Made by a program: the position numbers and the translations under genes. A stretch of DNA of 27,414 nucleotides. Source: a virus. Every line of letters starts with the position of its first letter. Within the stretch, counting starts at the first letter, position 1. The stretch covers positions 1 to 27,414 of IMG/VR virus record IMGVR_UViG_3300030333_003456. The stretch is one strand, 5' to 3'. Below the pieces are notes generated by a model. It was given only the letters and a program-made list of their open reading frames with translations. It did not search any database and was not told the DNA's origin. Shown here piece by piece: positions 2,704 to 26,500 of the stretch.

Positions 2704-5700
2704 TTACGAACGAACAGTTGTCTGATATTCAATTCGTTTAATTCTATATGATGCTCCAGCATTACCATTAATCTTTTCTCCACCTAAAATTGCCTGTGCT
2801 ATAGCACCATTAGGAGTGGAAGCAAACTTACCATCAGAAATATTATTAGAAGAATCTGTGAAAAGAATATATGGATGAGTCCTATATGAATTATCTATTG
2901 TCTGTTGATAACCATACCCACCATTAGTAATAGTAATAGAAGCAACTTGGTCTGCTGCGGTTGTCATATTTACAGTAGCAGTTGCTTGTATATCTCCCAT
3001 AGCACCACCCCAAGGAATAGTTTCGCTATTTCTGCTTTCAGTAGCAGGAGAAGTTGGACCCTGAATCTCTAATAATGGAGTAGAACTATAGTTCTGTCCA
3101 GAATCCTGAATAACAAAATCAATAATAGTTGAATCATGAGAAAACTCATAAAGATAACCAGCAATACCAACATTGATATTACCTGTGTTATATGGAGTAA
3201 TATCCTTAAGTGTAAGAATACCATTTGAAGGATCCCATGATACACAGGTTCCTCTAACTCCAGAAACTGCACCAGTTACAAGTTCATCAACACCAAAGTT
3301 TTGACCATTGTTATCTGTTGCCAATTCCACATATATCTTAACAAGTGCTGTATGGTCTACACCATCACTTAGACCACCTGCACCTGTAATTGTTGCATAC
3401 TTGAATGGAATAGCTGCGTCCTTAATATTATCACCAACTTGGAATAAGGTTGTATTAGTACCACCAAGGGTTTCTTCAATACCATATAATGAATTATAGA
3501 TACCACCGTCAAGACTAATTTGATTAAGGAAATCAGTACCAGTATTTACCAAATCAGGAATACCATCTCCAACTGGCGGACCTGCAGGTATAAGATCTTG
3601 GAATGCCTTATCTTGTAAAGTTGTAATAGGAACTGTTAATGTTGTAATAACACTTCCAGTAGAATCTACAACAACATGAGGATCAAATCCACTTGGAGCA
3701 CTATCAGCAACACCAGCATCAAACTGAACAATAGCATCCTCAGTAGAAGGAAGACCACCGTCAATAAATGCTAATTCATCAATTTCAAATGTAACTAACA
3801 GTGCTCTTGTAGCTGGATCCCAATCATATACTTTAGCAACCTTATTACTAGAGTTTTCAACTCTTCTTATAACTCTGTCACCAACATTAAACTTATAAGT
3901 TGAATTACCCTCAGAATCATTTTGTCCAGCATCAAGTATAATACGCTGATCATAATTAAAGTTTACACCCCTTGTTAAACCTGAGAACTTACCAGCAGAT
4001 TTAGAAGTATAAGAAATTGTTTCTGTGTCTACAATAATCTGACCTGATCCTGGATATGCATCTGTAGAATCAACAAATACATCCGAATCAGATGCACCAA
4101 GAGCTTTAACTAATCCAGTTAAGTAAATTGCAGAAGAATTAAATGCCTGTCTTGCTCTTGATTTACGCTTAAGATTAACAAGTTTAGTGAATATGACATT
4201 TGGTGAAGAGGTATATCCAGTACCAGGTTCAATAACATTAATACCAGTTAAAGCACCTTGATTAATAACTGCCTCTGCTTTAGCACCTAATCCTCCACCA
4301 CCAGTAATTAAAACATATGGAGGTTCTTCATAATATTCACCAGGATTTACAACACTAATTGATGTAACCTTACCAAGTTTATCAATAGTAGCAGCACCTT
4401 GAGCACCTTGTCCTCCACCACCTTCAAATATAAGTGTTGGTGGAGTTGCATAATCTCTACCTGTATTGGTTAATGATAAACCAGTAACTGTTTGTACAAC
4501 AGGATTACCAGTAGCACCTGTTCCACCACCACCAAGAATTTTTGCAGTAGCATTACCAAAATAATTATCACCCTTCTTGGTCATCTTAATATAAGAAAGT
4601 TGACCAGGATTATCTGTACTCAATACAACTTCACCCTCAGCACCACTTGGGAAAGATGCTGGCATTGGAGGTACTGTACTACCTTCAAATAATGGTACAC
4701 CATAAAACTTAAGACCAATAACATAAGGATATACAGGATTACCTGAACCATCCTCTGTCATAAAGTAAGCATAGGTTCCATTTGGATACTCAGGAGTTAC
4801 AGCAAATTTACCATTATGCTCATCAAGAGTACCAACACCAGAAGCCCAAATATAATCTTGTGTTAAATCTCCAAGAACATATCCACCTTGAACAGTTCTT
4901 AATCCATGACCTGAATTAGAATAAGCAAATGTATACAGAGCAGCAGGAGCATTTACAGGAACAGTCCATCGCATTTCCCTAGTAGTTGCTAACTGAAACC
5001 CGCTAATATAACTTGCATATGATACTTCAGAACCATTAATATAATATTTTACTCCTTCTACATTTGCAATATAATTTGTATTTCCTATATCTGATGTATT
5101 TCCTGTTGAATGCCATCCATCTTCAGTAGCAGACAATAGTAAATGTTGGTTATCATTACTCGAATCATTTTGTTGGAATATATAAGTCTTTCCTCGTTTT
5201 AAATCTAAGAAGTTTGGTGTTGAACCATCAAATAAGAATTTACCACTAGCTACAGTAACAACATATGTGACTGTACTTACAGTTGTTACTTCTGGACGAG
5301 CACCTGGAAGTTCACCAGCAGTTCTTAATCTATAACCAGATACCTCTCTAGCAACAGCACCAGAAGCATTATATCCCCAAGGACCATAAATGGGATATCC
5401 ATCATAAGACATACCCAAGATCTTAGAGTGTCCATCTACATGTCTTGAATAGTCAGGACCAGTAGCAAAGAAATCTGTAATGTAATAATCATTTACTGGA
5501 GGAGTATTATCTGGAGTGCTATCAAAGATCATATAACCTTCATCACCTGAATATCCAGACATATGTCTATGATACTTACAGTAATAATAGATTTTATTAG
5601 TTTCATCACTATTCATTATGAATAGAGGTGCAAACTCATTCTCATAATCAGTTGATGGTGCTGCACTTGCACCAGTACTATTATAATAAAGAGTACCACT

Positions 5701-7272
5701 ATTCAATAAACCATCAGCAGTCGTACTAAACTGCATCGGATGACCATGAGGATGAAGATTAGAAGGTTGGTTACTGGTATCTGCTTGATTCCACTTAATT
5801 AAATAATTTGCTTGAACCTTAATATCTTCTGGAGCAAAATAATATTGTCCAGGAACAAAGGAACCAAATTCAGCAGCATCCGTACCAAAGTCGATATAGA
5901 ATACACCGTTAGTAAGAAGTGTAGGAACTGCATTAACTCTAAATGAGAAACCAGTAGATCCTAAAAACTTATCACCTTCAGAAAAACTACCTTCTGTTTG
6001 TCTTAAATATACTCTTGTTACTTGATTTGTATTATCTCTTACTACCTTAGCAATTATACCTTGACCATTACCACCAATCTCACCTACATTTCTACCAACT
6101 TCTACCTGACCTAAAGTCTCATCAACTTGATTAACTACCAACATTATATTATCAAACTCGGTCTTAATATTCCAAGTAAATTGTCTTATCTTACCCCAAT
6201 CAAATACACCATTTCTCTGAGCAAATTCAGTAATAGTCTTACTTGACTGATAATACTGAATATTACTATCAACTATTGCATCATAAGCATTTGTATTTTT
6301 AAGATAATCGTACTTAACAGTATCAATAGAAAAGTTAGTGGGAGTTCCACCTGTTGTACCCCATTCTGGAGTATGGATTAATCCACCGTTTGCTAGAATC
6401 CCAGTAACTTTATTTAATTGCTCTTCTCTGGCACCAGGGTCAGGTACATCTTTACCACCCCTGTAAATGAAAGTTTGATTGAATGTGCGATCTTTTATTC
6501 CACCACCACTATAGACTGCACCTGCCAATGCAGATTTAAACGTATGTGCAGTAGTATTAGTAGAAGGTGCAACACCTAAAACTTGTATAGTAATACTATC
6601 AACAGTAGTATTATTAACTAAAATATTGACGTTATGAACTGGATCAGTTGTACGAGGATAGGTATGATCTGTAGCATGATTATCCTGAGCACAAGTAAAC
6701 GTTATAGAATTTGGTAATAACTTAATATAATCTCCAGGACTATAACTATGACTACCAATAGTCAAAACCATACTACCTGTAGTAGGGTTATAGGTAGCTT
6801 GAGTAGGAGTATATGCTGCTAATGTAGTACCAGGACTACCACCAGGAACTCTTTCCTCTGCTATTGGTGTAGGTTTTGGATGATTGTCCGCAACAATTGC
6901 AAGTCTATCTGTTGTCCCTGAGAACGTTCCAGTAGTTGCAGAGTTAGGATGAGTCTGCCAAATTTTATTGACATCAAAAGATGTTATAACATTAGGAGTT
7001 TCATCCTGAGGAACAATTTGTAATCTTAAAGGATCATATCCTCTACCTCGATTTAAAACCCTAACATGAATAATCTGACCTGAGTCATCATCAATAATAG
7101 GATATAATAATGCTTCAACATCTGGTGTGCCACATCCCTGTATAGTCAAACGAGGAGGATCATCTGACGAATAGGATGCACCACCGTTAACTACTTTGAC
7201 CGCACGAACTCCAAATATTTCATCAAAAATAGGTTCAATGACGGCACCAGAACCAGGAACTGTTCTTGCCAT
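2704..7272 (-). CDS. Large YHYH / cupredoxin-domain virion structural protein (1,522 aa)
   Basis: Its N-terminus (MARTVPGSGAVIEPIFDEIF) resembles the YHYH-domain structural proteins of T4-like cyanophages. Visible parts are: GxGY-type repeats at about 26-86; one CxxD...HTYPR repeat of the kind found in the giant protein at about 155-250; a cupredoxin-like region at about 480-585 with HPHGHP (507-512) and CKYHRHM (565-571); a YHYH-family core SYDGYPIYGPWGY at 622-634; a second cupredoxin-like stretch at about 675-800 without the cysteine; three GxGY/GGGG repeats at about 890-1030; and a mixed beta-rich C-terminus with more GxGY units at about 1385-1455. It starts 5 nt after the preceding stop codon with no clear Shine-Dalgarno, so coupled translation is likely. 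A role in the baseplate or fibres is inferred from lying between a fibre-like gene and gp8. No enzyme activity can be claimed. Confidence 0.85.
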   Translation of the reverse strand: MARTVPGSGAVIEPIFDEIFGVRAVKVVNGGASYSSDDPPRLTIQGCGTPDVEALLYPIIDDDSGQIIHVRVLNRGRGYDPLRLQIVPQDETPNVITSFDVNKIWQTHPNSATTGTFSGTTDRLAIVADNHPKPTPIAEERVPGGSPGTTLAAYTPTQATYNPTTGSMVLTIGSHSYSPGDYIKLLPNSITFTCAQDNHATDHTYPRTTDPVHNVNILVNNTTVDSITIQVLGVAPSTNTTAHTFKSALAGAVYSGGGIKDRTFNQTFIYRGGKDVPDPGAREEQLNKVTGILANGGLIHTPEWGTTGGTPTNFSIDTVKYDYLKNTNAYDAIVDSNIQYYQSSKTITEFAQRNGVFDWGKIRQFTWNIKTEFDNIMLVVNQVDETLGQVEVGRNVGEIGGNGQGIIAKVVRDNTNQVTRVYLRQTEGSFSEGDKFLGSTGFSFRVNAVPTLLTNGVFYIDFGTDAAEFGSFVPGQYYFAPEDIKVQANYLIKWNQADTSNQPSNLHPHGHPMQFSTTADGLLNSGTLYYNSTGASAAPSTDYENEFAPLFIMNSDETNKIYYYCKYHRHMSGYSGDEGYMIFDSTPDNTPPVNDYYITDFFATGPDYSRHVDGHSKILGMSYDGYPIYGPWGYNASGAVAREVSGYRLRTAGELPGARPEVTTVSTVTYVVTVASGKFLFDGSTPNFLDLKRGKTYIFQQNDSSNDNQHLLLSATEDGWHSTGNTSDIGNTNYIANVEGVKYYINGSEVSYASYISGFQLATTREMRWTVPVNAPAALYTFAYSNSGHGLRTVQGGYVLGDLTQDYIWASGVGTLDEHNGKFAVTPEYPNGTYAYFMTEDGSGNPVYPYVIGLKFYGVPLFEGSTVPPMPASFPSGAEGEVVLSTDNPGQLSYIKMTKKGDNYFGNATAKILGGGGTGATGNPVVQTVTGLSLTNTGRDYATPPTLIFEGGGGQGAQGAATIDKLGKVTSISVVNPGEYYEEPPYVLITGGGGLGAKAEAVINQGALTGINVIEPGTGYTSSPNVIFTKLVNLKRKSRARQAFNSSAIYLTGLVKALGASDSDVFVDSTDAYPGSGQIIVDTETISYTSKSAGKFSGLTRGVNFNYDQRIILDAGQNDSEGNSTYKFNVGDRVIRRVENSSNKVAKVYDWDPATRALLVTFEIDELAFIDGGLPSTEDAIVQFDAGVADSAPSGFDPHVVVDSTGSVITTLTVPITTLQDKAFQDLIPAGPPVGDGIPDLVNTGTDFLNQISLDGGIYNSLYGIEETLGGTNTTLFQVGDNIKDAAIPFKYATITGAGGLSDGVDHTALVKIYVELATDNNGQNFGVDELVTGAVSGVRGTCVSWDPSNGILTLKDITPYNTGNINVGIAGYLYEFSHDSTIIDFVIQDSGQNYSSTPLLEIQGPTSPATESRNSETIPWGGAMGDIQATATVNMTTAADQVASITITNGGYGYQQTIDNSYRTHPYILFTDSSNNISDGKFASTPNGAIAQAILGGEKINGNAGASYRIKRIEYQTTVRS
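5365..5442 (-). other. YHYH-family core motif in the 1,522-aa protein
   Basis: Residues 611-634 contain GHSKILGMSYDGYPIYGPWGY-type sequence, matching the signature GxAxDGxPIYG block of the YHYH family (PF14240). The family's name-giving YHYH tetrad is not present as such; the upstream CKYHRHM lies where it would be expected. Confidence 0.7.
5526..5835 (-). other. Cupredoxin-like region in the 1,522-aa protein (HPHGHP...CKYHRHM)
   Basis: Residues about 480-583 read like a blue-copper fold: a strand ending IKW, then HPHGHPMQF, then YYYCKYHRHMSG. Cys565, His568 and Met571 have the C-x2-H-x2-M spacing of the amicyanin copper loop, and a His from the HPHGHP motif would be the fourth ligand. The copper site is inferred from spacing alone. 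Confidence 0.6.
6523..6810 (-). repeat. Single CxxD...HTYPR repeat, type A, in the 1,522-aa protein
   Basis: Residues about 155-250 carry YNPTTGSMVLTIGSHSY, then ITFTCAQDNHATDHTYPR (YPR codons at 6652-6660), then ITIQVL and PSTNTTAHTF. This is the same repeat that occurs 19 times in the giant protein. It is the only copy seen outside it. Confidence 0.85.
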
Positions 7273-7277
7273 TTATA

Positions 7278-8501
7278 TTATGCTACGTTGATTGTGCCAT
7301 TCATGGCAGCGTGTAATGTACATTGATAATAAAGTGTTGCAGGAGCATCCATTGGTACAGTCCAATAGAGCACCGTCGTTCCACTACCACTTTGTCCAGT
7401 AGTATAAGGAGTACCAGCTAAACCTTGAGTACTCTGAATCCTAAAGGGGTGACCACCACCTTGGATTGAGTTATCAAATGCATAGGTAAATCCTTTATAC
7501 ACAGTAAAAGTAGGATCATTTACAACCCCACTAAATCCTGGTCCAGAAACTGTATAATCTCCAGTTCCTACTGCATTCAACTCAAACCAAATGATAGGAC
7601 TTCTATTAGGTTTCCAAACAGAACCATCATAGAATAATGAATCTCCTTGAGTAATACCAGCAATATCACTGTCAGTTAGAGCAGCAAATGTTGTTGTTAA
7701 AGTTCCAGAGAAATCAACTGTCACCGTATCTCCAGTGACAGATGTGGTGATATTAGTACCACCAGCAATAGTCAATGTATCTGTTTGAGTATTTGCTGTT
7801 GTATTTCCAGTATCTCCAGCAACAGTAGCAAATAAATTAATTGATGCAATACCAGATGCGTCATCACCAGGCTTCCACTTACTTGCAGAAGAATCCCATT
7901 TTAAAACTTGATTATTAGTAGGAGCAACAGTAGTTGTATCAACGTCTGTTAAGGCATCTACTCCTGAATATTGAGTTAAAAGTTTACACTTAGTATTACC
8001 TACACCACCAGCAGTAATGTTAATATTAACATATGGATTATCATCACCACTTACAGTATAAAAAATCCCTCTATAATCTGCTTCAGCAGGAGCAACACCA
8101 GTACTTGCATACTCATTTTTATACTTTAGTTTAGTCGGGAAATCGATTGCTCCAGTCGTACCATCAAAACTATTAGTGACACCACCAACACCGAGAGTAA
8201 GATTTCCTGTTCCGTTGGTAGCGATATTAATATTTCCATTAGACGAGGATATGATAGAACTTCCATTTACGTCTAAATTAGCAGTTAAGTTTGTATAATC
8301 TGAAGGTAAAAAAGTTGATCCATTATAGCGTAAAACCTGTCCTGTCGCAGGGTTAGTGGTATTAACTGTTAAAGTTGTACCATTACCTAACGCAGAGTAG
8401 ATTTCATTGAAATTGTCGTTAATCTTGTCTCCACCTGCTCGAAGGGTATCACCCGTATTATCGTTAGCATTAGTTCCAAGACCAAGTGATTGTTTAGCCA
8501 T
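7278..8501 (-). CDS. Tail-fibre-like protein with C-terminal cupredoxin-like domain (407 aa)
   Basis: The N-terminus (LGLGTNANDNTGDTLRAGG, then KINDNFNEIYSALG) is the widespread phage fibre/adaptor motif that starts many tail-associated proteins. Short fibre-type repeats follow: GQVLRYNGSTFLPSD (54-68), NQVLKWDSSASKWKPGDD (197-214) and GDSLFYDGSVWKP (286-298). The last 100 residues form a different domain: FTVYKGFTYAF (332-342), GHPFRI with His351, YWTVPMDAPATLYYQ (379-393), then CTLHAAM with Cys394, His397 and Met400. This matches a type 1 copper (amicyanin-like) ligand set in order and spacing. The gene starts 20 nt after the giant gene's stop codon, behind a perfect late-promoter box; GAG 3 nt before the ATG is a weak ribosome site. 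It probably acts as a short fibre or as an adaptor next to the giant protein. Confidence 0.85.
   Translation of the reverse strand: MAKQSLGLGTNANDNTGDTLRAGGDKINDNFNEIYSALGNGTTLTVNTTNPATGQVLRYNGSTFLPSDYTNLTANLDVNGSSIISSSNGNINIATNGTGNLTLGVGGVTNSFDGTTGAIDFPTKLKYKNEYASTGVAPAEADYRGIFYTVSGDDNPYVNINITAGGVGNTKCKLLTQYSGVDALTDVDTTTVAPTNNQVLKWDSSASKWKPGDDASGIASINLFATVAGDTGNTTANTQTDTLTIAGGTNITTSVTGDTVTVDFSGTLTTTFAALTDSDIAGITQGDSLFYDGSVWKPNRSPIIWFELNAVGTGDYTVSGPGFSGVVNDPTFTVYKGFTYAFDNSIQGGGHPFRIQSTQGLAGTPYTTGQSGSGTTVLYWTVPMDAPATLYYQCTLHAAMNGTINVA
7281..7509 (-). other. Amicyanin-like cupredoxin domain at the C-terminus of the 407-aa protein
   Basis: Residues about 332-407 hold His351 (GHPF) and the loop Cys394-x2-His397-x2-Met400. 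In amicyanin the ligands are His53 and the loop Cys92-x2-His95-x2-Met98, so the loop spacing is identical and the His-Cys separation is similar (43 against 39 residues). The domain ends six residues after the final beta strand begins, as expected for this fold. Confidence 0.65.
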
Positions 8502-8521: not shown

Positions 8522-8529
8522 TATTTATA
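8522..8529 (-). promoter_or_regulatory. Perfect T4-type late promoter box (TATAAATA)
   Basis: The minus strand reads TATAAATA, the exact T4 late-promoter consensus. It overlaps the TAA stop codon of the giant gene (8525-8527) and lies 20 nt upstream of the 407-aa gene start at 8501. Initiation a few nt downstream would give a short leader. It would let the downstream genes be made independently of the very long giant transcript. Confidence 0.75.
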
Positions 8530-11500
8530 AAGGTGTTTCAGGGTCTACTGGTTCTTCACCATACAAACTTAGGTCAGGAGCAGTCCAATCATCAGGAACT
8601 GATGTTTCAACTGCGATGGTTGGGTTTGCATATCCAGAACCAGGATTGCTAACTTCAACACCACCAACACCAACCAGAGCTCGTATAGAACCCTCAAATC
8701 CAGATATAGAGTCAATCCTTACAGTTGGTCTGGTAGTATATCCAGATCCACCTGATGTAACTTGGACATCCCTAATCGTACCAGAGGTTAGATTTGCGTT
8801 TGCAATCGCACCTGAACCGAATACAGATCCAAGATAGTCAAATGTGATTAGAGAGTTTGAAGACTCAATAACAGCAACTTCTCTGTCTGATGTCTCACCT
8901 TGGATGTCAATGAAGTCACCTGGTTCTACTGGAGGTACAACCTCAGCAGCGTCAACGTCTGCCTCAGAACCAACGTAGGAGAAGGCAACGAATGTAGAAC
9001 CTACACGTGGAATCTCAGAGAATAAAATTCTTGAACCAACAATCTCAAATCCGATTCCAGGTTCCTGTATAACACCGTTAAGTGAAACAATGATGTTATT
9101 TTCTGGACGTATTGTGGAAGATTGAACACCCTCAGTTAGAGTTAGTGAGTAGAATACATCATTACGCTTGAGGTTGAATGACTGACGTAAAGAGTCAAAC
9201 TCGAATGAAATATCATCCAACTGTCTCAACTTACCTACGTAGAATCCTGTGAATGATGCCCCTAAATCTGGTGCCTCTTGGAATTGAATCTCATCAGAGA
9301 ACGCTGTATATGCGTTAGATGCACCTGGAGGTTGTAGAATACCATTAATGAATACTAATAGATGTCCTGCAGGATCTGGTAGGTATGGAGTACCATTCTG
9401 TTGAGTTAACTTAAAGTTTGTAGTAGTTCCATCAAATCCTTTAAATGAACGCTTAACACGTGCCTTAAGATCTACTATATCACTAATAACTGATGCATAT
9501 CCATCTGGACCCTTAATGGAATCCTTAGGATCAAATGTACCCTTAATACTTGATAGATAAAGTCTTCTATTAACACCAACTGTTCTAATATCCTGAACAA
9601 CTGCAGCTGCAGCACCAGCAGTAGTAACCTTAGTGTTAATTGATGCGTAACCAACTGGGTTGGATAAACCAGCACCATAGTCACCTACAACGTCACCGTT
9701 AGTAAGAGTTCCTTGATACTCCTGCATGTAAATGTAATTATTAGAAAGATCAACAGCAGTAATAATACCGTAAGTATTTTGATCTTGAATACCAGATACA
9801 ACCTTATAAAGTCTATTACCAACAGTGAAGTTGTTAAGACCACTAAGAACTGTAACACCAAGTCTTATATAACCATTAGATGCGATTCTTGCACCAACAC
9901 CTACGTCAAGACCAGCATATTTAACAACATCAAGATATTGTCTGGAAGATTCAGGATAAACAACAGCAGTAGTTTCAAACTCACCTGTAAGAGTTGCAGT
10001 GTCAACTGTTAGAGTACCACCAGTATTGTCTAATGTAGCAGCCTCTCTTCTAAGGAATCCAGTAGGAGTTGCTGTAGCACCTGAAGTATATCCTTTGAAT
10101 GGAACATTATCTTCAAATGTACCCTTAAGATCTATAACATGAACTCTATTTTCAATAGCACTGATTTGAGCAGTTGTGGAGTTTTCAGCACCAACAACAT
10201 TATCAGTAATTGCCCAAGGACCGTTAGTAACTTTAACATCAAGATACTTGTAGTTGGCATCTGTCCAGAAACCATATACAACACCAGTAATTGAAGGAGC
10301 ACCTTGCTTACTTACAGTCTCACCCATAGTGTAAGGACCATCTGTAATATCACCATCAATTCTAAATCTTTGGAATACCTGTACGATCTTACCTTCATTT
10401 AGAGTAAGGTTCTCAAGTTCACCGTATGTGTTACTTAATAAACCATACATGTAATCAGCATTTTGTATTCCACCACCAACACCCTGAGGAATTGATCTTG
10501 TTCCATATGTCTTAGATGGTAGAGAAACACCATTTACACTAATATAATTGGTATAAGATGTATCAACAGTTAATTGCTGACGGATAATATCAATACAATA
10601 TCTAACAATGCTACTTACTGAATCAGGATTATACCATGCAGCAGCTTCATCATAGAATGCTTTATAGAATCCAGAATTAGGTGAAGGAGAAGTAAGAGTA
10701 TTCTTAAGTGCCTGAGCCATATACTCTTCCATAAGATCCAGAGCATAATTCTTAATGTTATACTCAGAATCAGAATAGAAGATCTTAGCATCTTGAGATT
10801 GATATGGATCTAAGGCATTCTTATTAAGTTTAGCACCCCAGATATAAAGTCCATCACTATTATTACCAGCATATGTTTGAGCACCAGCAGCATTCTTAAC
10901 ATAAACCTGTGATCTCATCTCTGCGAAACCGAAGGAGAATGTTAGAGTAATATATGCTCTATACCATCCATCTCCAAGAGGTACAACGCCGTATGCGTCA
11001 CCAGTTACACCATTTTGAGGTGTGAATAGTGAACCAACAACACCTGTGTCAAGTGCAACATCAAAGAATGCATTCTGAACAGCAGCAGTACCGTAGTTCA
11101 ATGATAGCATTACACGAGCATTATCATATTCACCCTTCTTAAGGAATACAGAATATGTGTACTGCTGTGAAGGAGATGTTCCAGAAGCACCTTCATCAAA
11201 TTTTTGAGTATCTGTATCCCATTTGATACTGCTGTCATCAAATGTATCGTATGCAGATAGATTGTATATTCTATGAATTGTATGATCTGCATTAGTAGAA
11301 GAAGCAACTAATTTATCAGCAGTTAATGTTCCATCAGGAGCAAGTAAAGCATCATCAGTAAATGAAACCTCAGTACCAGTCCAATTAGTTGAGAATTGCT
11401 CTGGATTAGTGAATAGGTTAGTACCAGCAATTTGACCACTTACATTAGAAGTAATAAGTCTTGCACTACCAAGAGTCTTAACATTAGTTGGAGAATTATA

Positions 11501-14500
11501 CCACTTATACTGAATACCAATACCAGCAGGATCAATAGTTGCAGTTGCACCAGAATCATTACCTGTTAATACATCATAATCCTTCCATTCTGTACCAGTA
11601 ACAGTACTGCATACAAAGAATTCAGTATCGATATTATATTCACGAACTATTGCAGTACCACCACCATCAGATGTAACTGTTTCACCAACTTTAAAGTTGC
11701 CAGTTATGTCACCAATAGAAATATTACGAGCAACTGAATTATCAGACATATCAGTTGTGATAATGTCATGAACAGTATCATCTACAATCTGATCAATGAA
11801 TGTATTGTAAGTCCAAGAACCAGCACCAAACTGAGAATTAACTAAAGTTGTAATTTCTTCCTTATAGTAGTTTCTATTGAAGAGTAAATTCTTAGCAGCA
11901 CCTCTACCTTCCATCTTAGCAGGAGCAAGAATATTAACTGCTATATCAGTTAATTCTTCTAATCTGCGTACAACATCTTCGATTGCTACAGGAGATAATG
12001 CATCTGTATATACAGGTTCATCTGTATGTTGAGCAACATATTGTTCAGCAGTTGCAGTTCCGTTAAGAGCAACTAAACGATTTCTAAGTGCATGCTCACC
12101 AATGATCTTAATCTGTTCAATACCATAAACTGTTGCTAAGAGTTCACTTTCAATATGATTCAACTCTCCAGCAGAAGTTAAGTAGTATTCCATAGCAGCA
12201 ATAGTACTATTATTACCACCAGTCTGAAGGTCAGAAATCATACCAAGAATGATTAACTTAAGGTCTCTCTGACACTTACCTTCACCTAAAGCACCACTTG
12301 GATAAGTATGTGCATTATAGTTTACACTGTTTAGTACATAAGTAAATTCTTGTGTGATTAATCCTGTAATCTCCTCTGCCATATACTTCCTATTGAAGTA
12401 TAATCTATCAGCAGCAATAGCATAATCATTATCTGTAGGAGCAATAATATCATTAACAGCAGTAACTAAAGTATCAATAGCAGACTTAACGTTTGCACAT
12501 CCACCACCATCTTGAGTAATACCCCAATCACCAACAATAATATCATCAGTATTATCATAAGTTAGATCACCAGTAATTGCTTGCTTCATGTAATGTGCAA
12601 GACGTAGGTGAGCATAAATTGACTGGAATACCTGTAATCTAATGTGTAACAGAACATCATTAGTACCAAGATAAAACTTAGCAACATTAGTAGTATTCAA
12701 GTTACCACCATCTTCAATATCTTTACAGAACTCTTCAAGGAGTAATGTTAGGTCAGTCTTACACTGTAATGTACCATCTGTACTACCACCTACGTTACGA
12801 GGCATTTCAGTAACAAGATCTGGATATAATGTAAGCATATCGTGAGATGTCTTATCTACGATAGGACCAGCATTTGCACGAATTAATGCAGCAGCATCTC
12901 TAAATCTGTTCCGTGTAGTCTCATCAATTTGATTAGTAACGATGATATCATTAGTAGCATCATGATAAGATACTGGGAATGGAACCTCATAGAATGCACT
13001 AACTTTACCACCAAGGAAGTCATGCTTAGGAGTTAACTTAGTAACAGTTGCAAGATGATCTACAGCAGGTGATAGAGTTGCTTGAGTAACAGTATCAACC
13101 AAGATATCCATTAAGTTATCGATGGTTGTGTATACATCAGTACAATCTGACCAGTTGTAATTTAATATTGAAACAGCATTATTTGCGATAGAAACTAACT
13201 GGTGAGTATTCTTAACCTTCTTAATAGCACCATATGCAGCAGATACAAATGTATGTGCAGACTGTGGTAAGAATGAAACAGCATTAGTTGTAGCACTCTG
13301 GAATGTATGAGTGTAATCTCCACCAGAACTAATTACTGCTCTCTTGATTCCATTAGCAGTTGCAGACTGGAATCCATGAGCCATAACGTTTGTTGAAGGT
13401 ACTGCATCCAGAACCTGAACATCAAATGTGTTTGTTGTTACATTAGAAATAGTTGTCCACTTACCACTAATAGGATCACTCTTTCTTGGATAAGTCTTAG
13501 TTACAGTATTACCATCAAGAGCACAAGTAAATGATAGTGAATTATCAGCGATCTTAACTTTCTCACCGTTAACGAATCCATGATTAGCAACTGTGATTGT
13601 CATAACACCTGTAGTTGGGTTATATGCAGCATTAGTTGCTGTAAAGTCGCTATTAGCACTAACGAATGTATGAGCAGTTGTGTTAGAAGATGTACCAACA
13701 TTAACTGTAATTGTATTACCTGTTACAGCAGTAATGTTAACAGCATCGTTGTATGCTGGATCGTCAGCAGATGCACCACCTTGACCGTTTGCACGAGGAT
13801 AAGTGTGGTTGGATCCATGACTATCTTGAGCACATGTAAAGGTTAGAGAATTGTTTGCAATTCTAATTGCTGTACCAACTGTAAGATTATGATCACCAAT
13901 AGTTAGAACTAAGTTACCATTTGAAGGATCAAAGGTTGCAGCAGATACTTCATGACCGATAATAGGTGAAGAACCAACATTAACTGTGATTACACCAGTC
14001 TTTCTTCTAAGTCCCTTTGTAGCAAATGACTTAAATGTATGAGTTGTTGTGTCAGAAGAAATACCAAAGTTAACATCAAATGTGTTAGTTGCAACGTTGG
14101 ATATTTGCATCCACTTATTCTGATAAGGATCAGTTGCTCTTGGATATGCATGATCAGTAGTATTTCCATCTAAGGAGCATGTCATAGTAAGAGCACCATC
14201 ATCAATCATTACCCAATCACCGTTAGACCATCCATGATTAGCAAGTGTGATTGTTGCAGCACCTGTTGCTGGAGTGTATGAAACGTTAGTTGGTGTATGA
14301 TGTGTATGTCCTACATGCTTAACAGGAATAGACTTAAGATCACCGTATGGATCTGTTGAACGAGGATAAGTCTTATTAGCAGTGTTACCATCCATCGAGC
14401 ACTTGAAGGTTAAACCATTATTAGCAATAGTAATACTTGATCCAACACTTATACCATGACCACTACCAATGGTTAGAGTCATATCACCAGTGTAAGCATC

Positions 14501-17500
14501 GTAAGTTGCTGCAGAAGGAGTGAATGTCTGGTTAGTACCAGCAGGATTTACATTAACTGTAATTGTTCCAGTTTGTCTCTTAACACCACCAGAAGTAGCA
14601 GATACAAATGTATGAGCAGTTGTGTTAGAAGAAATACCAACATTAACTTCAAATGTATCAGCAGTGATAGCAAAGATATCCAACCATCTATTATAAGTTG
14701 GATCAGTTACTCTTGGATAAGCATGGTTAGAACCATTACTATCTTGAGCACAAGTAAAGGTTATTGCATCAGCATCAAACTTAACTCTATCACCAGCAAC
14801 TAATCCATGTGAAGCAGATGTAATTCTTAAAATACCAGTTGCAGGTTCATAGTTAGCAGTTGAAGGTGTAAGACTTGTTGTACCAACAGAAGCAACAGGT
14901 ATTGGTTTTGCAGAGAACTCATCTTTATTAGTACGAGGATAAGTCTTATTAGATTGATTATTATCCATTGCACAAGTGAATGTCAATGAATTATCATCAA
15001 TAGTAATACTATCATCGTCTGTTATATCATGTGATCCAATAGTTAATACCAAGTTACCAGTAGCAGGATCATATGTCGCAGCAGTTGGAGTATATGGTTG
15101 GTCAATAGTATCACCAAGAGACTTACCAATATCAACAGTAAATGTATTTGTTGTTGCCTTTCTTACTCTTAGAGCAGAATTATAAGCAGGATCTGTAACA
15201 CGAGGATATGCATGATCTGTTCTCTTACCATCAATATGACATCTGAAGGTTAATGAACCAGCATCAAGTTTAATTGCATCACCCATCTTATGAATACCAT
15301 TTGCCTTAGCAGATACAAATGTATGAGTATAGTCACCACCAGTACTTACTACAGATCTGGTAATACATCCAGTAGTAGCAGATACAAATGCGTGAGTTGT
15401 GGTGTTAGTTGGGGATGTTCCTTGTAAAACATTGATAGTAAATGTATTTGTTGTTACAGCAGTAATTGGAACAAATCTGTTACTAATTGGGTCAGTAGCA
15501 CGAGGATAAGTATGGTTTGTTGCATTACTATCCTCTGCACAAGTAAAGGTTAATCCATTATCAGCAATCTTAATATGCTCTCCAACCTTAAATCCATGAT
15601 TAGCAACAGTTAATACTAAGTTACCAGTAGATGCTGTGTAAGAAGCAGTTGTTGGAGTGTAAGTATTATTTGCGTTTATAAATGTATGATCATAATTACC
15701 ACCAGCAATTAGACCACCAGACTTAGCAGAAACAAATGCGTGGGTTGTAGTATTAGAGGAGGAATTAACATTCAGAGTAATAGTTCCATCCTGAACCTTA
15801 ATACCATTAGATGTGGCACTTACATAAGTGTGTGCAAAATCACCAAATCCAGTAATACCAACATTAACATCAAATGTGTTAGTTGTGGAAGCAACAACAG
15901 GAGTCCATTGGTTAGCAACTGGGTCAGTAGCACGAGGATAAGTATGGTTTGTTGCGTTGCTATCTCTAGTACAAGTAAAGGTTAATGAATCAGCATCAAA
16001 CTTAACTTGACTATTTGCCTTCATAACACCATTAGTTGTAGCAGATATGAATGCATGAGTAGACTGATCATTCGCAATACCAATATTAACATCAAATGTA
16101 TCGGTTGTTACATTTTGAACAGTCAACCACTTGAGGTATGAAGGATCAGTAGCACGAGGATATGAATGTTGTGACTGATGATTATCTTTAGTGCAACTGA
16201 ATGTTAAAGCACCTTCCTTAATTAAAATTCTATCTCCATTGGTATATCCATGACTTGATTTTGTCAAAGTCAGAACACCTGTTGCTGGTACATATGCAGC
16301 AGAAGTTGGTGTAATCTCCGAAGCAGCAGTCAATCCATGACCATTACTGGTGATCTGTAGAACACCTGTGGTAGGAGCATAGGTTGCACCTGTAGCAGTC
16401 TTATTAGAAGTACCTACAGCAGTAATTTCAATTGGAGCATCATATGCTCTATCTCTCTTTTGCTTAATACAGTTTGTAGCAGCAGATACAAATACATGAG
16501 TAGAAGTATTAGTTGAAGGTATATCCTGTAATACTTGTACTGTAAATGTGTTTGTAGTTACAGCAGAAACTTTCAACCATTTACCGCTAACTGGATCAGT
16601 TACTCTTGGGTAAGTATGGTTACTTTGATTATTATCTAACTGACATGTGAATGTAAGTGAATTATCGTCAATCTTAATCCAATCACCAACTCTAACTCCA
16701 TGAGAGTTAACAGTGAATACCAAAAGACCAGTTGTTCCACTATATGTTGCAGTGGATGGTGTAAACTCATCTATAAATGGTCTTGGATAAGAATGATTAG
16801 ATGCATTACTATCTTGAGCACATGTAAATGTTAATGCTCTCTCAAGTAATTTAACTGTTTGACCAACTTGTAAATTATGTGATCCAAGTGTTAGAACTAA
16901 GTTACCATTTGAAGGATCAAATGTCGCATTAGACATATCATGCTTCTCAGTAGGTGACTTACCTACATCAATACTGATAGATCCATCTTGCTTAATAATA
17001 CCATTTGGATATGCAGACTTGAATGTATGAGCAGACTTGTCTGGAGATATACCAACATTAACAGTAAAGGTCTTATCTGTCTTAGAATTAATTCTTAACC
17101 ATCTTCTATAGAATGGATCTGTAGGTCTTGGATAAGAGTGTTCTGTAGCATCATTATCCTTACCACAAGTAAAGGTTAAAGACTTCTCAGCAATTCTGAT
17201 CTTATCACCAACAGAATAACCGTGCTTATCAGATAGAACACTGTTATTTCTTGCACTTATAAAGGTGTGTGCATAATCACCACCTGTTGTAACAACTGCT
17301 CTAGTAATACAATTTGCAGCAGCAGATACAAACTGGTGAGTTGTAGTGTTTGTTGAAGGTACTACATCAAGTACCTGAATAGTAAATGTATTTGTAGTTA
17401 CTGATTGGATATCAATAAACTTACCGCTAATTGGGTCAGTTACTCTTGGATAAGTGTGATTAGTAGCATTATTATCCTGACCACAAGTGAATGTTAATGA

Positions 17501-20500
17501 ATTATCAGCAATCTTAATCTTCTGTCCAGCTAACATTCCATGATTAGCAACTGTAAATGCCAATAAACCGTTAGTTGGGTTGTAAGTAACAGAAGTTGGT
17601 GTTAATGAACTTGCTTTTGGAACAAAGGTATGAGTACCAGCAGTAGCATCATTAGCAGGACCAACGTTAACAGTAATTGTTGTTGAAGTTATCGCAGTAA
17701 TCGTTGTTGCAGCATCATATACTGGGTCAGTAGTACGAGGATATTTGTGCTCAGTAGCATTACTATCCTTAGTACATGTAAATGTTAAAGATTCAGGTTC
17801 AAATCTAACAGATGTACCAACATCTAAACTATGACTACCAATAGTCATAACCATATCACCTGTGGTAGGTGTATAAGTGACTGCTGATGGATTGAATGTT
17901 ACTAATGGTGAAGCACCAACATTAACATCAAATGTATTAGTTGTTACATTTGCAATGTTTATAAAGTCACCACTAAGAGGATCAGATGATCTTGGATAAG
18001 GGTGAAGAGTGGCATTATCATCCATATCACAAGTAAATGTGATTGCACCATCTTCAATCTTAACTTTATCACCAAGAACTAAACCGTGATTAGGAATAGT
18101 TAATGTTAATACACCTGTTCTTGCAACATATGCAGCAAGTGTAGGTGTTAGATTAGTACCAGAAGTGATAGTTAAATCACCTGTTGAAGGAGTGTAACTG
18201 GCAGCAGTTGCTGTACTTGCAATACCATCACTTACAATAGGAACAGAATCGTTGTAAATAGGATCTGTTGTTCTTGGATAAGTCTTATACTCAGTAGTAC
18301 CACCCATAGAACACAAATACTTCAAAGAGTTATTTGCAATCTTAACGTTAGTTCCTACTTCTAAACTATGATCTCCAATACCTAACTTCAACCAACCAGT
18401 CTCAGGATCGTAAGTAGATGATGTTGGAGTGAAACTCTTAATTGGTGATGGACCAACATTAACATTAAATGTATTAGTTGTTACACCAGAGACTTCTAAG
18501 TATCCAGAACTTGCTTCGTCGGATATTCTGGGATAGGTGTGTTCAGACCTATCTTGGTCCATACTACACGTAAAAGTGAGTGAGTTATCAACAAGTTTGA
18601 TTCTATCGCCATTTGAAAGACCATGACTATTACTCGTTATAGTTAATACACCAGTATTCGCTACGTATGCTGCATTAGACGCTGTAAGAGACGATGCACC
18701 ATTAATACCATGAGAAGACTTGGTTAATGTTAATTCACCTGTTGCAGGGTCATATACTGCTGCCGTAGGAGTAATGGAAGTAAGTGAATTTGTTGTGGAA
18801 TCAGTGATAGTGGTATCAGTTGTCTGAGTTAGACCATGATCACCTTGAACTTCCCAAAGAGTGTTGGTTCCAATGTACTGAACCATTTCCTGAGTCTTCT
18901 TAAATGCCCAAAGACTTTCAGTAACTTCATTCTTAATTTCTTTTAATTGAACAGGATTTGCAGTCCTATCAACATAGAATGCAGATGCATCCCAGATATG
19001 ACTGTTACTACCGTTACGAATATCTTCTACAACACTCTTCAGTACATCAACAATATCATCAGCACAGTTAATAGATCCACCCTTAACAGTGAAGTTAGGG
19101 AATCTCTTCTTCATTAACCATACAACTTCTTGAGCAATAAAGTCTAAGTTTGCAAGTACTAAATCGCCAGCGTTGATATATCTCTGAGTATTCTTATTAA
19201 ATCCATTGTTGGCAATACCAACATTAACAGTAAGAGTTGTCCCTGAAACCGCAGTGATAGCAAGGGTTGTGTCGTATGCAGGGTCAGTTACTCTTGGATA
19301 TGTATGAGAGGTTTGATGGTTATCCTTAGAACAAGTGAAGGATAACTTATTAGCACCAATCTTAAGAGTGTCACTTGTTGTGAAACTATGAGATCCAATA
19401 GTTAATACTAAGTCTCCTGTATTAGGATCATATGTTGCATCAGTTACATCCTTCTGTACACTATTAGCAGTTATTGTAATAGCATTAACTGAAGTACTAC
19501 CATTATAGATGTGCTTACCAGCAACATCTCTTACAGTTGCAAGAATAGCATCATTATTGAAGAATTCTCCATTTGTAAATCCTTCAACACCAGACCAATC
19601 ATCAATATAATTAACACCATCATTACCATCACAGTGTAATAATAGTTTGGTATTAGAATCACCTTGGAATATACCAGCAACAGGAGTAAATGCACCAGTA
19701 TAACGGTTAGTTGTAGAAACTCTTACCTCATCAACATGACCAACAAATCCATTAGCACCATTCCAATCAGCACCAATTCTTATTGGTTTAGCAACATAAG
19801 TTGTACTATCAGTACCAGTTCCTCTTTCAACACCATCAATATAGATCTTACCAGTTGTACCAGACTTAACATATGCAATATGAGTCCAAGTATTAGCAGA
19901 AATGGTTGTTGCACCTGAAGTTACAAGATCAGAGTTATTAACGTTTACACGAACTTGACCTGCTTCTAAGTATAGTCTAAAAGCAACTTCATTAGCACTA
20001 CTTGCTCTTGTATCAAATATATCAGCAGTACCACTTACAGAAGCAGTAGCAGCACGAATATACATCTCAACAGTAAATGCACCAGATCCAAATGCAATTT
20101 CATCAGTAGATGCTTGAACAATGTAATCAGCAGCATTAGCAAATTCTAAAGATGCAGTTCCAAATTTCTTCTGTGCAGTATCAATAGCAGCAGCATTTTC
20201 AAAGGTAAAGTCAAAATAATCTTCACCATTTGCTTTACATCTACCAATCTTACCAAGATAAACAATATTACGTGCTTGGTTAAATCCAATAACTTCAGCT
20301 TTAGTATCTCTGGTTCTAATTACCTGTCCAGTATTAAAGAATCCACTACCAATTCTATCAGTGAAGGATAATTTTCTAACTCTTCCATCTTCACCAGCAA
20401 TGAAATCACCATTACTATTACCATATTCAATCTTATAGTTACGGATATTCTCATTCTCTTGGAACGTTCCTACCAGATTATCGTAAGGAATAGTATAGTT

Positions 20501-23500
20501 ATTAATACGCTCGTTAGCAGGGAATTTAGAGTCAAATGCAGTAGCATTATCTGTAAAGTCAACAATACTAATCTGGGACTTAGAAATATCGTCTAATACA
20601 ACGTTTGGATAAGTCTGAGAGGTAATTCTGTTGAATAGTAGACCAAAGAATGATGAACCTTCGGATATATTAACCTGACCAATAAATTCATTAGTTGTAG
20701 GATCTTGATATGCTGAAGTTGCAGTAACAGTAGCAACAACACCAGATGAAGCACCAAGAATAACATCATTTAATTGAATATCAAATAAACCAGGAGTTGA
20801 CTTATAAGTACCAGCAGTCTTACTTAGTGTTAATGTATTAGTAACACTAATGTCTGTACCGTAAATTGGAGTATTTTCTTGTACAGATTGAGCAGTAGTA
20901 CCAAGTTGTCCTCTGGTAACACCTATAGTTGTAGATGATGCACCATCAGTAATACTATCAACTCTGAATATTTCAGAACCAAACTGATAATTCTTAGTAG
21001 CAGTAAATGTTCCTGCAGGAACAGGACCAGGATCACCAGTTAGAGGAACTACTTCAAATGATACAGTAGAAAGACCAATAGTATAACGAACCTTAGCTAC
21101 TGGTGTCTCAGCACCAGATTCAAGGTTAATTTGCTCAACCTTTGCAGTATCTCCAGTTAAGTTAGTGATCTGCTCACCAAATGTGAATAGACCGATATTT
21201 GATACAGCAGTATTTGTTGCTAAGTTAGCAGAGAATCCAGTAGCACTAACAGTACATAGTTCACCAATAACAAAGGTTCCTTCAGTAATATAACCATTAA
21301 CTGTAGTACCAACAACAGTTGTTACAGTTAACTTCGCACCAGATGATATACCAGTTAATACATTACCTAATAATGGATAGATACCACTTTGATTAGTAAA
21401 AGTAAATGCAACCGTAGATTTCTGAGAAATCGTGATATTTGCATACTTAACACTTGCTGGAGGTTGTGGTGGTTCTGAGAAGACGATAGAGTCTTGCTGA
21501 ATACTAAATGCAGTCTTAGGATTCTGTACAACACCATTCAACACAATCATTAACTGATTTGCGTTTGCAACAACGTTGTTACCATCAACAGTTAGAGGGA
21601 ATGATATTCTCTCACCATCAAATAGAGTAGAAATATCATCAACACGTTGTACAACAGAGGTCAAAATGTTCTCTGAAGATGTCAATCTCTTCTGTCTGAA
21701 TAGAACTTCAGTATTATTGAAGTCAGAGTAAATTGGTTCAACAAGAGCAAAGTTTTGAATATTAGGAACAATTGATTCCTGAGCAAGTTCAACAGACTTA
21801 GTTAACTGGAAGAATGTCTCTTTGTTAGGAACAAATCCATACTCATTAAGGTTTAATTCACCAAATACCTTAAATGATGCAGGGTGAACGTTCTTGATAA
21901 GGATCTCCTTCCAATCGCTGATAGAAACAGCAGATTTAACAGCATAGGAGAAGTCCTGATAATAGTAAGAGTCTTGAATCTTTTGAATAATTTCGGAAGG
22001 TTTACCAACATCATCGATAAACTGACCTGTTGTTTTGGTTATAGAACCAATTTCAAGAACACCTTTAGCAACCTTCAGATCACTAATAGTACCTGAAGAC
22101 TTAGAAATAACACCAGTAACCTTTTCATTCTCTACAAATGAACCAGTGTAATCAACGATCTTAATAATTCTAGGTCCAACCTGCCAACCAGAGTTAGTAG
22201 AAACATAACCTTGGGCAGTGGCATTTTCAAGAGACTCACCTTGATATATCAATTCTCCTTCCAAGAAAGTAGAAGTGATGACATTAGCAGTAGCAGCACC
22301 ACCAAATGATTCAGTTAACACACTCTGACGACCTTCACCAGCATTAACGAAGGAAAGAGCATCACCAAGAGCAGCGTTAGATGCAGTAATAGCAAGTTTT
22401 AATTGATCTGGTTCTAATGAGTTTGCAGCACCAGCAATAGCATAGTAAGTAGTAGAAGCATTTAATCTACCAGTTGCACCAGCAGCAAGAGGGAAATCAG
22501 CACCATCTCCAGTATCAGTAACAGTAACTGTTACAGCAGCACCATTAACAATACCATGAGGATAAGCAAATTGTAATAAACCTAAGTCAAGGTTTACAAC
22601 ATAGTTGAATGAGGACTTAAGGTTAATAGTTGGTGTAGATGAATAACCAGCACCAGGATCTTTAACAAAGATTTGATCTAATCGACCATTCTTAATAGTT
22701 GCTTCAGCAACTGCTCCAGAACCGCCACCACCAGTAATTACAACAGCAGGAGGTAGAGAATATCCAGAACCTGGGTCAGTAACTGTAATACTTGAAAGTA
22801 TACTTGTAGATGTTAACTGGGCGTTAATCGGGAAGGTAATCTCAGGACGTAAAGTATAGTCATGAGGATAATCATATCCAAAGTTATTATTCTTAAGTTT
22901 CTTGATTTTTCCGACATTTGTACCCTTAGTAAAGATAGAAGCACCTGTACCAGCAGAAGGAATAACAACCACTAATTCAGCACCAGATCCAGTTAAACCA
23001 GACCCAAGAATACCTGAAATTGAGTTAATATCAATAGATGCAGTAGTATATCCTTTACCTGGATCAATAACATCAACTTTTTGAATTTGACCTGGTATAG
23101 TAGTACCTTCATCATCAGTACCATCAGCAACAGTAATAGTAACTAAACCACCTTCACCATCACCAGCAATAGGCACATTATTGTATTCTCCAACAGCATA
23201 TTCAGTACCTGGAGCATTAATTTGAACTCTTTCAATCTTTCTTGTTGATACAATACCTGTTACAACTGGTAATTTAGTATAGAAACCACCAGAGTTAACA
23301 ATACGAATATTATTGATAGAACCAACAGCTTTTAGTGAACTTGTACTATAAGTTGTTCTACTTACATCTGCAGGACCTTCTGGTTCATTAAGTAGAGGGA
23401 ACTTGAATATATCAGGTCCAGTAGTAATAGTTTCACCAGCAGTAGAACTAATCTGGAATGTACCCTTATATGGTGAATCTACAACATCTAAGTAACTACC

Positions 23501-26500
23501 AGGAATTACAGGAGAATCATCCCCAGTTCTTGATGGGTCAAAGTAATATGAAATATTTGTAACAATATTTTGATCAACTTTTAGTTTAACTGTAGGTGTA
23601 GGTTGTCCTTGACCAGTTACACCAGGAGTACCAATTCTTTCAATAGAGTTGAAGGAATACTCCAACTTATAAAGGTTATCCTTAGCAAATGATAGGTTAC
23701 CACCAACTAATGAAGAGTGACTTAGGTCAAACAGATACTGATGACCATAATACATCTTCAAGACAGGAGACTTGACAAATATATTAACATTACCAGGAGT
23801 ACTTGTCTCAGGATCACTTATTGCTGCTTGAGGTAATTTGTAAGTAAATTCAAGTGAACTTACAACAGTATCAACAGGGAATGCACCATCATACTCATCA
23901 TATACAACACCACCAACAGTACGTTCTGGGTTACCATCAATATAAAGCATTTGACCTTTTTCAAGATAATGCTTAGTAGCAGTAATTACGTAAACTTCAT
24001 CACTATTAGCAACTGCTGTTACTTGAAGAATCTTAGTAAGATTTGTAACTAAAGTAATCTTTAGAACACCAGTTAAATTAGTAATTGTTGCTTGTGAATA
24101 TCCAGCGTTAAAGGAGATATCTCCAGAACTAATTGTAACAACAGATCCAACAATAAATGGTGAACTACCAGATACTTCATCAATTCTTATTGCATAATCT
24201 GCATCTGAATATGCTTTAAATACACCATATTGATGTAGATTATTAGCTCCTCCTGCTTCTAAAGGATAATTTGAAAGATTAATTATGAATGTTCCAGGAG
24301 TAGTATTATTAACCTGTGCAAAGGTATATCCAATTATTTCATTAACATCATTAGGAATTGGTCCAACAATATTATAAGTATCTTGCTCGTTGAATTGTTC
24401 AGTAGTTAATTGACCAGCATTGAGATCATCTGTCCAAAGGTTATTATTAACAGCAACATATATCTTATTATTTTCATTATCTACCTTAATGATATAACCG
24501 CTATTAGTGAAAGATGATCCTGTTGTAAGAACTAACTTAGCACCAACTGTGAAATTAAATGCCTGATTTACAGTAAGTACTTGAATATTATCAATCTTAG
24601 CAGTATCAGTAACTTTAAAGAAATATCTATCCTTAACAACAGCAGATACCTTAAGTTTCTGTGAACCTGGAGATGGAACTGTAGCAGTTCTGGAACCCCA
24701 AATATCTTGAGTATAAGTCAGAGTCTCAGTATCTTGAGACATCGTAGTTGTTGTATCATCAAAGTCAAGAGTCTGTAAACCTGCATCACCTAAACTATAT
24801 CCAGTAGCAGAAACAGTTATAACAGAACCAGTAACAGGAGTTACAGCAGTCCTTACAAATCCTACCTTAGTATTAGTTCTCTCTGAATAAGTTCCAATTC
24901 TTCCAGATTCAGCATCTTTATCAACCTTGATACCCCAACCAACGTAATCAATATAATCATAACGGTTTAGATAAGAAGTAAACCATGCATCATCTACCCA
25001 ATCAAATGTCTGACTATAACTTGCAGTTGGTGGTAATGTTACAACATCAGTAGGAACTGTAGGAGTTACAAATCTGTTCCTTAACTTAATATTATCAATA
25101 TAGAATTGACCCTGCTTAGACTGAGCAAAGTCAGTTGCTCCACTACCAAAACCAATTTGATTACCAAAGTATATGTTCTTATTACCAAGTGAAGTACTTG
25201 ATAATGTACCAGTAATGACTGCAATACCGTTAATATATGCCTTGAACTCATTACCATTCTTAGTTAATGCTACAAACTGCCAAGAGTTATCAGCATACAT
25301 GTTAGTCTGAGATGATGACTGACCAGAACCGTTTATAAGTTGTGTTGTATTATTAGTAATTACTAATTGTAACTCTCCACTACCATTATCATAACCTAAC
25401 CATAGACCACCAGTAGCATCTCTTGCTCCACCAATACCACATAGAGTTTGAGCACCTTGAGATAAAGTCTGTGATTCACTACCATTCTTATAGATCATGA
25501 ACTCTAAAGTCCAATCACCAGCAAGAGTCTCTTTTAATGTAGTACCTGGAACACTTAAGTAAGAATTAACCCAAGTAGAATTAGAACCTGCAGGATTGTA
25601 ACCATAAATCTTGGCAAGATTGCCTGTATAGGTTATTGCATTAGTAGCACCAACAGATGTTAAAACATGGTGACCTGTTATATCAACTTGCTCATTATTA
25701 GCAAAATCATAGATAAATTCATTTCTATTCCACTGAGTTTGACCAAATACATGAACATCACCTGATTCGTCAACATCAAGTGCATGTGCAGTTACACCCT
25801 CAATATTATTAACATTGAAGTTGTTGGTTGTATGATTCTTAATCTTACCATCATAACCAATCTTAACTGTATCTACAGTTGTTTGAGTATCTGTATTATT
25901 CTTTCTTGTAAATGCAATATTTAAATCACCAAATAAGTCAATTTCAGATGAATTTGTTACATGAACTTCTCTACCAGGAGCAAGATAACGATAATTCCAA
26001 ATTAAACTACCATCAGTAGAATTAACTTTACCAACCCAGAAACTATCTCTAGTTGTATCATCACTCTTCAATCTACATGAAGCAGTAAGATAAATTTCCT
26101 TAAATTCATCAATACAAAGAGTAGAATCTAAGAAGGAATAAGCTGTGTTGCTATATTCCTTAATCCATTCGATAGTAATAACACTTGTACCAATGGTTGC
26201 TTTACCTACACATTGATTGATGTCTTGAGAACTACTGGTTGCTGACACTTCCATTGTGAAGTATACATCAGTACCATCAATGATTAAATCAGTAATTTTT
26301 TCATTACCAGTTGCAGAAGCTAACTTTCTCTTAACTGCAAAATTACCAGTGGTATCAATAGAAGCAATAAATGCATCAAAAGGTGCAGCAGAGTTAGTAT
26401 TAGTGTAACCACCAATAATATAACGAGTATCTGAATATTTCTGAATTGCAGTTACATTATCAGAACGAGTAGCACCAGATATACCAGCATATGCCTTTTG

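Follow-up and report, generated by a model that had tools for sequence, protein, structure and literature searches.

In cells, type 1 copper domains are known for carrying electrons, and in the known proteins the complete ligand set, including the methionine, is tuned for electron transfer. Amicyanin is a stand-alone periplasmic partner of methylamine dehydrogenase; the cupredoxin domain of nitrite reductase and rusticyanin are electron carriers in the periplasm. The small blue copper proteins, amicyanin among them, usually have an asparagine after the first histidine ligand, and an HPxHxH string is a feature of multicopper oxidases. Cyanophages that carry petE have been described (PMC2984593, PMC3037559). 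Metal sites have also been proposed for phage tails, namely HxH iron sites in tail fibres (PMC11705849) and a zinc site or metal-hydrolase function for YHYH domains (PMC7824862). The words ‘copper’ and ‘plastocyanin’ do not occur in PMC7824862. Among the papers listed by searches of an open-access collection, where subscription journals are mostly absent, none describes a cupredoxin domain in a phage particle, and the HxH iron and YHYH metal-hydrolase proposals are the nearest ideas found there.

The window analysed here is a virus record of 27,414 bases, a marine cyanophage fragment in which a series of minus-strand genes includes open reading frames (ORFs) of 6216, 407, 1522 and 510 amino acids (aa). 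The 407-aa protein (7278–8501, minus strand) matched phrog_677 over residues 1–406 (PHROGs; E = 4.6e-188) and PF07880, T4_gp9_10_N, above the cut-off (Pfam; E = 2.7e-10). The latter marks a T4 gp9/gp10-like N-terminal domain at residues 3–104 (8190–8495, minus strand), and phmmer aligned the protein to T4 gp10 (E = 8.2e-6) and T4 gp9 (E = 8.9e-5). With both this N-terminal domain and a full-length phrog_677 match, the product is a gp9-like baseplate wedge/tail-fibre connector, a label that replaces the ‘small fibre-like protein’ of the original prediction. Homologues were found in 326 of 50,697 phage records, 285 of them covering at least 80% of the query; 319 of the 326 records are named Synechococcus phage, Prochlorococcus phage or Cyanophage.

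The neighbouring genes on the same strand encode a 1522-aa baseplate wedge protein (2704–7272; phrog_708, E = 0) and a gp8-like baseplate wedge protein, the 510-aa ORF (1133–2665; PF09215, phrog_438). In the annotations of S-ShM2 and ACG-2014d the same order recurs, from a large structural gene through the gp9-like gene and the wedge protein to gp8, with one or two additional genes preceding gp9 compared with the window. Homology and gene order together suggest that the 407-aa protein sits in the particle. In the 6216-aa ORF (8525–27175, minus strand) a degenerate FTCxxDxNxxxHxYPR repeat occurs at least 18 times, and the next gene has one further copy; there is no tandem repeat at the DNA level. 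Each repeat has a cysteine and most have a histidine, and metal binding by these repeats is a possibility.

The C-terminal part of the connector, residues 307–407 (7281–7583, minus strand), is predicted to form a cupredoxin-type domain, here called domain A, as judged by AlphaFold2 and by structural and profile matches. Towards its C-terminus it shows a histidine followed by a Cys-xn-His-xn-Met string: His351 in a GHPF motif (7449–7451), the predicted first metal ligand; Cys394 (7320–7322), the predicted thiolate ligand; His397 (7311–7313), a further predicted ligand; and Met400 (7302–7304), the predicted axial ligand. The set spans 7302–7451 on the minus strand, and the residue numbers and C-x2-H-x2-M spacing originally reported for it are exact. 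The residue after His351 is a proline, not an asparagine. C-x2-H-x2-M occurs twice in the window's four long ORFs, the second time in the 1522-aa gene; in residue shuffles of the four long proteins (n = 2000) the mean was 0.006 occurrences, and 0/2000 shuffles reached two.

The structure of domain A was predicted with AlphaFold2 from a 32-row alignment of the window and IMG/VR loci, drawn from 70 of 244 copies picked by identity, with three rows of a second copy (domain B, below) and 35 others omitted. The resulting model is all-beta, with nine strands and a pLDDT of 96.8. A type 1 copper site is expected to place its first histidine before a strand, its cysteine at a strand end and the second histidine and the methionine in the following loop. 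In the model, numbered from residue 307 as 1, the first histidine (45) lies directly ahead of strand 47–50, the cysteine (88) is the final residue of strand 83–88, and the loop preceding strand 95–100 holds His 91 and Met 94.

A Foldseek search of domain A against the PDB returned no match at E ≤ 0.001; amicyanins appeared from E = 1.8e-3 (TM 0.48 at 5.2 Å, probability 1.00), with immunoglobulin-type domains close behind at similar scores. The latter would suit a metal-free structural beta-sandwich, in which the four residues are kept for packing or protein–protein contact, a reading taken up below. In a second search with VIA-align, 50/50 matches listed were cupredoxin-type folds, the best with Z = 9.6 at 2.0 Å over 85 residues; a Z below 8 may mean merely a common arrangement, and three chains reach 8. 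The matches listed comprise nitrite reductase cupredoxin domains, rusticyanin, auracyanin, azurin and other small blue copper proteins, together with multicopper oxidases and with coagulation factor VIII, a protein with A domains of this fold. The cupredoxin fold that had been proposed from the strands is thus upheld by the model and by these matches, while the suggested overlay on amicyanin gave a TM of just 0.48.

A profile of ten phage copies placed amicyanin first in the PDB (E = 5.7e-4), followed by nitrite reductase, plastocyanin and rusticyanin; part of this score reflects the motif itself, because the ten rows were picked from copies with the complete ligand set and the ligand-free copy of cyanophage P-SS2 (PSS2) was omitted. 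The 407-aa protein matched neither of the Pfam families Copper-bind (PF00127) and PF13473, and a PF00127 family search across the window found nothing. PF00127 did match four of the ten members of the profile alignment (best E = 5e-4), and the P-SSM2 tail spike scored above the Copper-bind cut-off (23.3 vs 21.2 bits).

Asking whether the ligands are maintained, we collected relatives with six patterns free of any ligand residue (scan 1) and retained the best 80 of 595 confirmed relatives. All four residues are present in 80/80 of these close homologues. Free loss of Cys394 or His351, the outcome that would have spoken against the site, was looked for and not seen in this protein family. At both histidines and at the cysteine, both synonymous codons are in use across the 80 loci while the residues stay constant, which indicates that selection acts on the residues. 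The reading of domain A as a relic was rejected on the strength of the 80/80 retention together with this synonymous variation, in agreement with the original argument from a complete ligand set.

Among the same 80 homologues, 41/100 columns are invariant, as would also be seen if the residues served packing in a metal-free sandwich; invariance within the close set is therefore weak by itself, and a wider set matters more. We assembled 52 loci chosen for spread, mostly named phages found by tblastn or profile searches, which gave 71 matches and 45 distinct sequences, and analysed the 42 that cover the first histidine and the cysteine. The full ligand set is present in 38/42 of these, all 38 with C-x2-H-x2-M spacing and 33 of the 38 with a proline after the first histidine. 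The ligand columns have 93% identity, tied second among 85 columns with a median of 38%, indicating that the ligand set is under purifying selection. That these columns exceed nearly all others in a diverse set argues against the metal-free sandwich, as does the joint loss of the ligands in another copy (domain C, below), and we regard that explanation as rather improbable. The four exceptions are the small P-SS2 protein (DATM), one domain C copy, a ligand-free P-HM1 copy and a P-HM1 copy with the methionine shifted by +1.

Pooling all loci collected up to that stage, including two further scans biased by the presence of the cysteine in the pattern of scan 2 and in one of the six patterns of scan 3, 402/544 copies carry all four residues and the other 142 retain one at most. 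Ligand loss is nearly all-or-none across these 544 copies, a pattern that is by itself no proof, as most ligand-free rows represent one inherited copy, domain C. Partial sets occur in diverged copies: P-HM1 has C-x2-H-x3-M; an S-CAM4 copy has its histidine in one matched piece and its cysteine in another, with the second histidine and the methionine unaligned; and the match to an S-CAM1 copy is confined to its first part.

The adjoining 1522-aa gene contains two more cupredoxin-like copies around YHYH pieces; neither was part of the original prediction. Domain B (residues 480–573; 5554–5835, minus strand; HMM E = 8.1e-24) has a complete set, H511, C565, H568 and M571, whereas the set is lost from domain C (residues 668–787; 4912–5271, minus strand; HMM E = 6.8e-29). 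In the scan 1 loci, where copies were assigned to domain A or B by their sequences, the set is kept in 70/70 detected copies of domain B and in 0/68 of domain C. In S-ShM2 and ACG-2014d, domain C retains the full ligand set, which suggests that the window's lineage lost the four residues jointly. A structure model of B, C and the YHYH pieces was set aside (mean pLDDT 44.7 from a 9-row alignment).

The YHYH family match is best at residues 797–841 (4750–4884, minus strand; PF14240, E = 5.8e-16), and YHYH pieces lie between and beside domains B and C. Within this stretch, 7/9 aligned rows including the window read YAYF and the other two YAYY in place of YHYH, so that the metal site proposed for that domain may be lost here.

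Such neighbours bear on whether the predicted site could hold zinc, nickel or iron in place of copper, either as a structural clamp or as bait, the latter having been proposed for tail-fibre iron. Precedents exist in the HxH iron (PMC11705849) and YHYH zinc (PMC7824862) proposals for tails, and the YHYH domains are interleaved with copies B and C in the 1522-aa gene. On the other side, copper proteins head the profile matches, and a cupredoxin fold bearing His-Cys-His-Met has the copper set; we consider another metal possible, if unlikely.

Complete copies of the module are also found well beyond this gene family. In the T7-like phages P-GSP1 and P-SCSP2 the copy lies in a fibre-type protein, close to its N-terminus; the Pelagibacter phages Baldr, HTVC028P and Mosig have them in tail fibres, and further complete copies occur in Methylophilales phage Melnitz-1 and in S-TIM5. 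The P-SSM2 tail spike combines two complete copies with an S74 chaperone domain, and in P-HM1, S-CAM4 and S-BM3 the module lies in structural or peptidase-S8 proteins. By sequence, then, podoviruses, pelagiphages and a methylophilales phage also have the module in tail proteins. A whole-record profile search gave at least one match in 12/12 phages, all preselected as already holding a copy, with four places each in P-SSM2 and P-HM1.

In the BFVD library of predicted viral structures, domain A had 54 matches at E ≤ 0.001; among the 50 of 54 matches listed, the named ones are mostly from cyanophages, with a few giant-virus ‘beta-sandwich’ proteins. Three of these giant-virus matches, A0A481Z6J5, A0A481YWX9 and A0A481Z7Q7 (E = 4.7e-6 to 1.4e-4), come from Pithovirus and Marseillevirus LC contigs. 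A scan of a genome collection yielded ten loci, several evidently phage sequence inside cellular assemblies, and is silent on ligand retention because its pattern contained the ligands. The Nonlabens xiamenensis contig NZ_RMVE01000006.1 (188,235 bases) encodes a gp9-like protein with a copy of the domain nearly identical to that of cyanophage P-TIM40 (188,632 bases), and the contig resembles a phage genome included in a bacterial assembly; a Rhodopirellula metagenome-assembled genome (L294) likewise has a gp9-like gene. A cell-labelled protein of Prochlorococcus sp. AG-347-K20 (L302:3–3173), with SWM and Big repeats, holds a complete copy of the domain, a hint of use on host surfaces as well.

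Cyanophages do carry petE (PMC2984593, PMC3037559), and one relative of the domain is annotated as PetE, which raises the question of an acquired metabolic gene, a host plastocyanin that was fused or mis-called. The gene order disfavours this. The domain is not a stand-alone secreted plastocyanin: it is fused to a baseplate protein that begins with a gp9/gp10 domain, and the gene lies between baseplate genes. The annotated relative, a ‘PetE’ of ~168 aa in S-SCSM2R (PQ898602, L086:3794–4300), carries the virion-type domain after ~70 N-terminal residues and follows genes annotated as FhaB and peptidase S8. It probably has a structural role and was wrongly annotated as a metabolic gene, and for domain A we hold a plastocyanin origin of this kind to be very improbable. 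The case is a warning that ‘plastocyanin/PetE’ calls on viral contigs can be structural proteins.

Evidence from particles comes from cyanophage P-SS2, whose ORF080 was detected in purified virions with an average of 9 peptides (PMC2784084). ORF080 is a stand-alone 113-aa copy of the domain without the cysteine or histidine ligands, so at least a ligand-free version of the fold is a virion component. Baseplate wedge proteins of S-CREM2 have been found in virions (PMC10665884). The S-CREM2 region with ORFs 120–123 contains no copy of the domain and thus offers no virion proof for a complete copy. Homology suggests that complete copies, too, are present in virions.

Taken together, we propose, with a probability of about 0.68, that residues 307–407 are a type 1 cupredoxin domain at the C-terminus of a gp9-like connector, with a predicted copper site that is likely to act as a structural clamp. 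The fold, the complete His-Cys-His-Met set, the purifying selection on it and the spread of the module are borne out by sequence and prediction. We regard the module as a real, conserved and under-described component of marine phage tails with a complete type 1 copper signature, apparently attached by these phages to baseplate connectors, tail fibres and spikes, with domain A as one case. The four residues would bind one copper ion. Because the protein is made in the cytoplasm, where free copper is scarce, the site would acquire its metal mainly once the cell has lysed, taking it up from seawater or from the host envelope. The most likely function of the metal would be to pin the loops of a solvent-exposed beta-sandwich at the tail-fibre attachment joint, and the domain would thereby probably act as a virion-borne, metal-clamped structural or contact module. 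The module's occurrence across different hosts and tail types favours a generic role over one tied to a particular receptor. A T4 particle contains six gp9 trimers; if the same stoichiometry holds here, up to 18 domain A sites per particle would result.

A role in electron transfer or redox gating is a less likely possibility. A redox switch, in which Cu(I)/Cu(II) cycling on the tail tunes fibre deployment or adsorption to light-driven oxidants or to the redox state of the host envelope, would be consistent with the retention of a complete type 1 set across unrelated tail types. However, domain C and the P-SS2 protein keep the fold family without the ligands, which indicates that the fold can serve without redox chemistry, and we know of no electron partner on a virion. 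We therefore consider such a switch unlikely. The broader idea that abundant tailed viruses of the open ocean carry, on baseplates and fibres, several blue copper centres per particle, loaded from seawater, whose redox state would trigger or lock fibre deployment and adsorption, we hold to be decidedly unlikely. A conserved group of type 1 copper domains in the tails of marine phages would bring copper into the list of metals proposed for virions, and adsorption by phages that infect Prochlorococcus, Synechococcus, SAR11 and Methylophilales would then have a testable metal dependence.

Compared with known systems, the 407-aa protein shares its N-terminal domain and its annotated role with T4 gp9, the baseplate wedge/long tail fibre connector; the PDB match to T4 gp9/gp10 spans only the first ~60 residues, and the cupredoxin C-terminus lies outside it. 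The YHYH tail domains (PF14240), proposed metal-dependent hydrolases, are a different family that is interleaved with copies B and C. Amicyanin (PDB 1aac/3ply) has the C-x2-H-x2-M loop in common with domain A and is the top PDB match of the phage profile, and to this extent the term ‘amicyanin-like’ used in the original prediction stands; the proline after the first histidine, the closest structures and the gene context do not fit it. The phage domain differs from amicyanin in its fusion to a baseplate protein and in its baseplate gene neighbours, and we rejected its identification as an amicyanin proper on the grounds that it has proline for asparagine and makes up the C-terminal section of a 407-aa protein of the baseplate, encoded among other baseplate genes. 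The structures closest to the model are the cupredoxin domain of Hyphomicrobium nitrite reductase (2dv6; Z = 9.6) and rusticyanin (1rcy, 2cal; Z up to 8.6); these three align with domain A over 85–87 residues at 20–28% identity. The HPxHxH string of multicopper oxidases resembles the phage proline after histidine more than the His-Asn of the small blue copper proteins does, and this proline would be expected to alter how the predicted site behaves.
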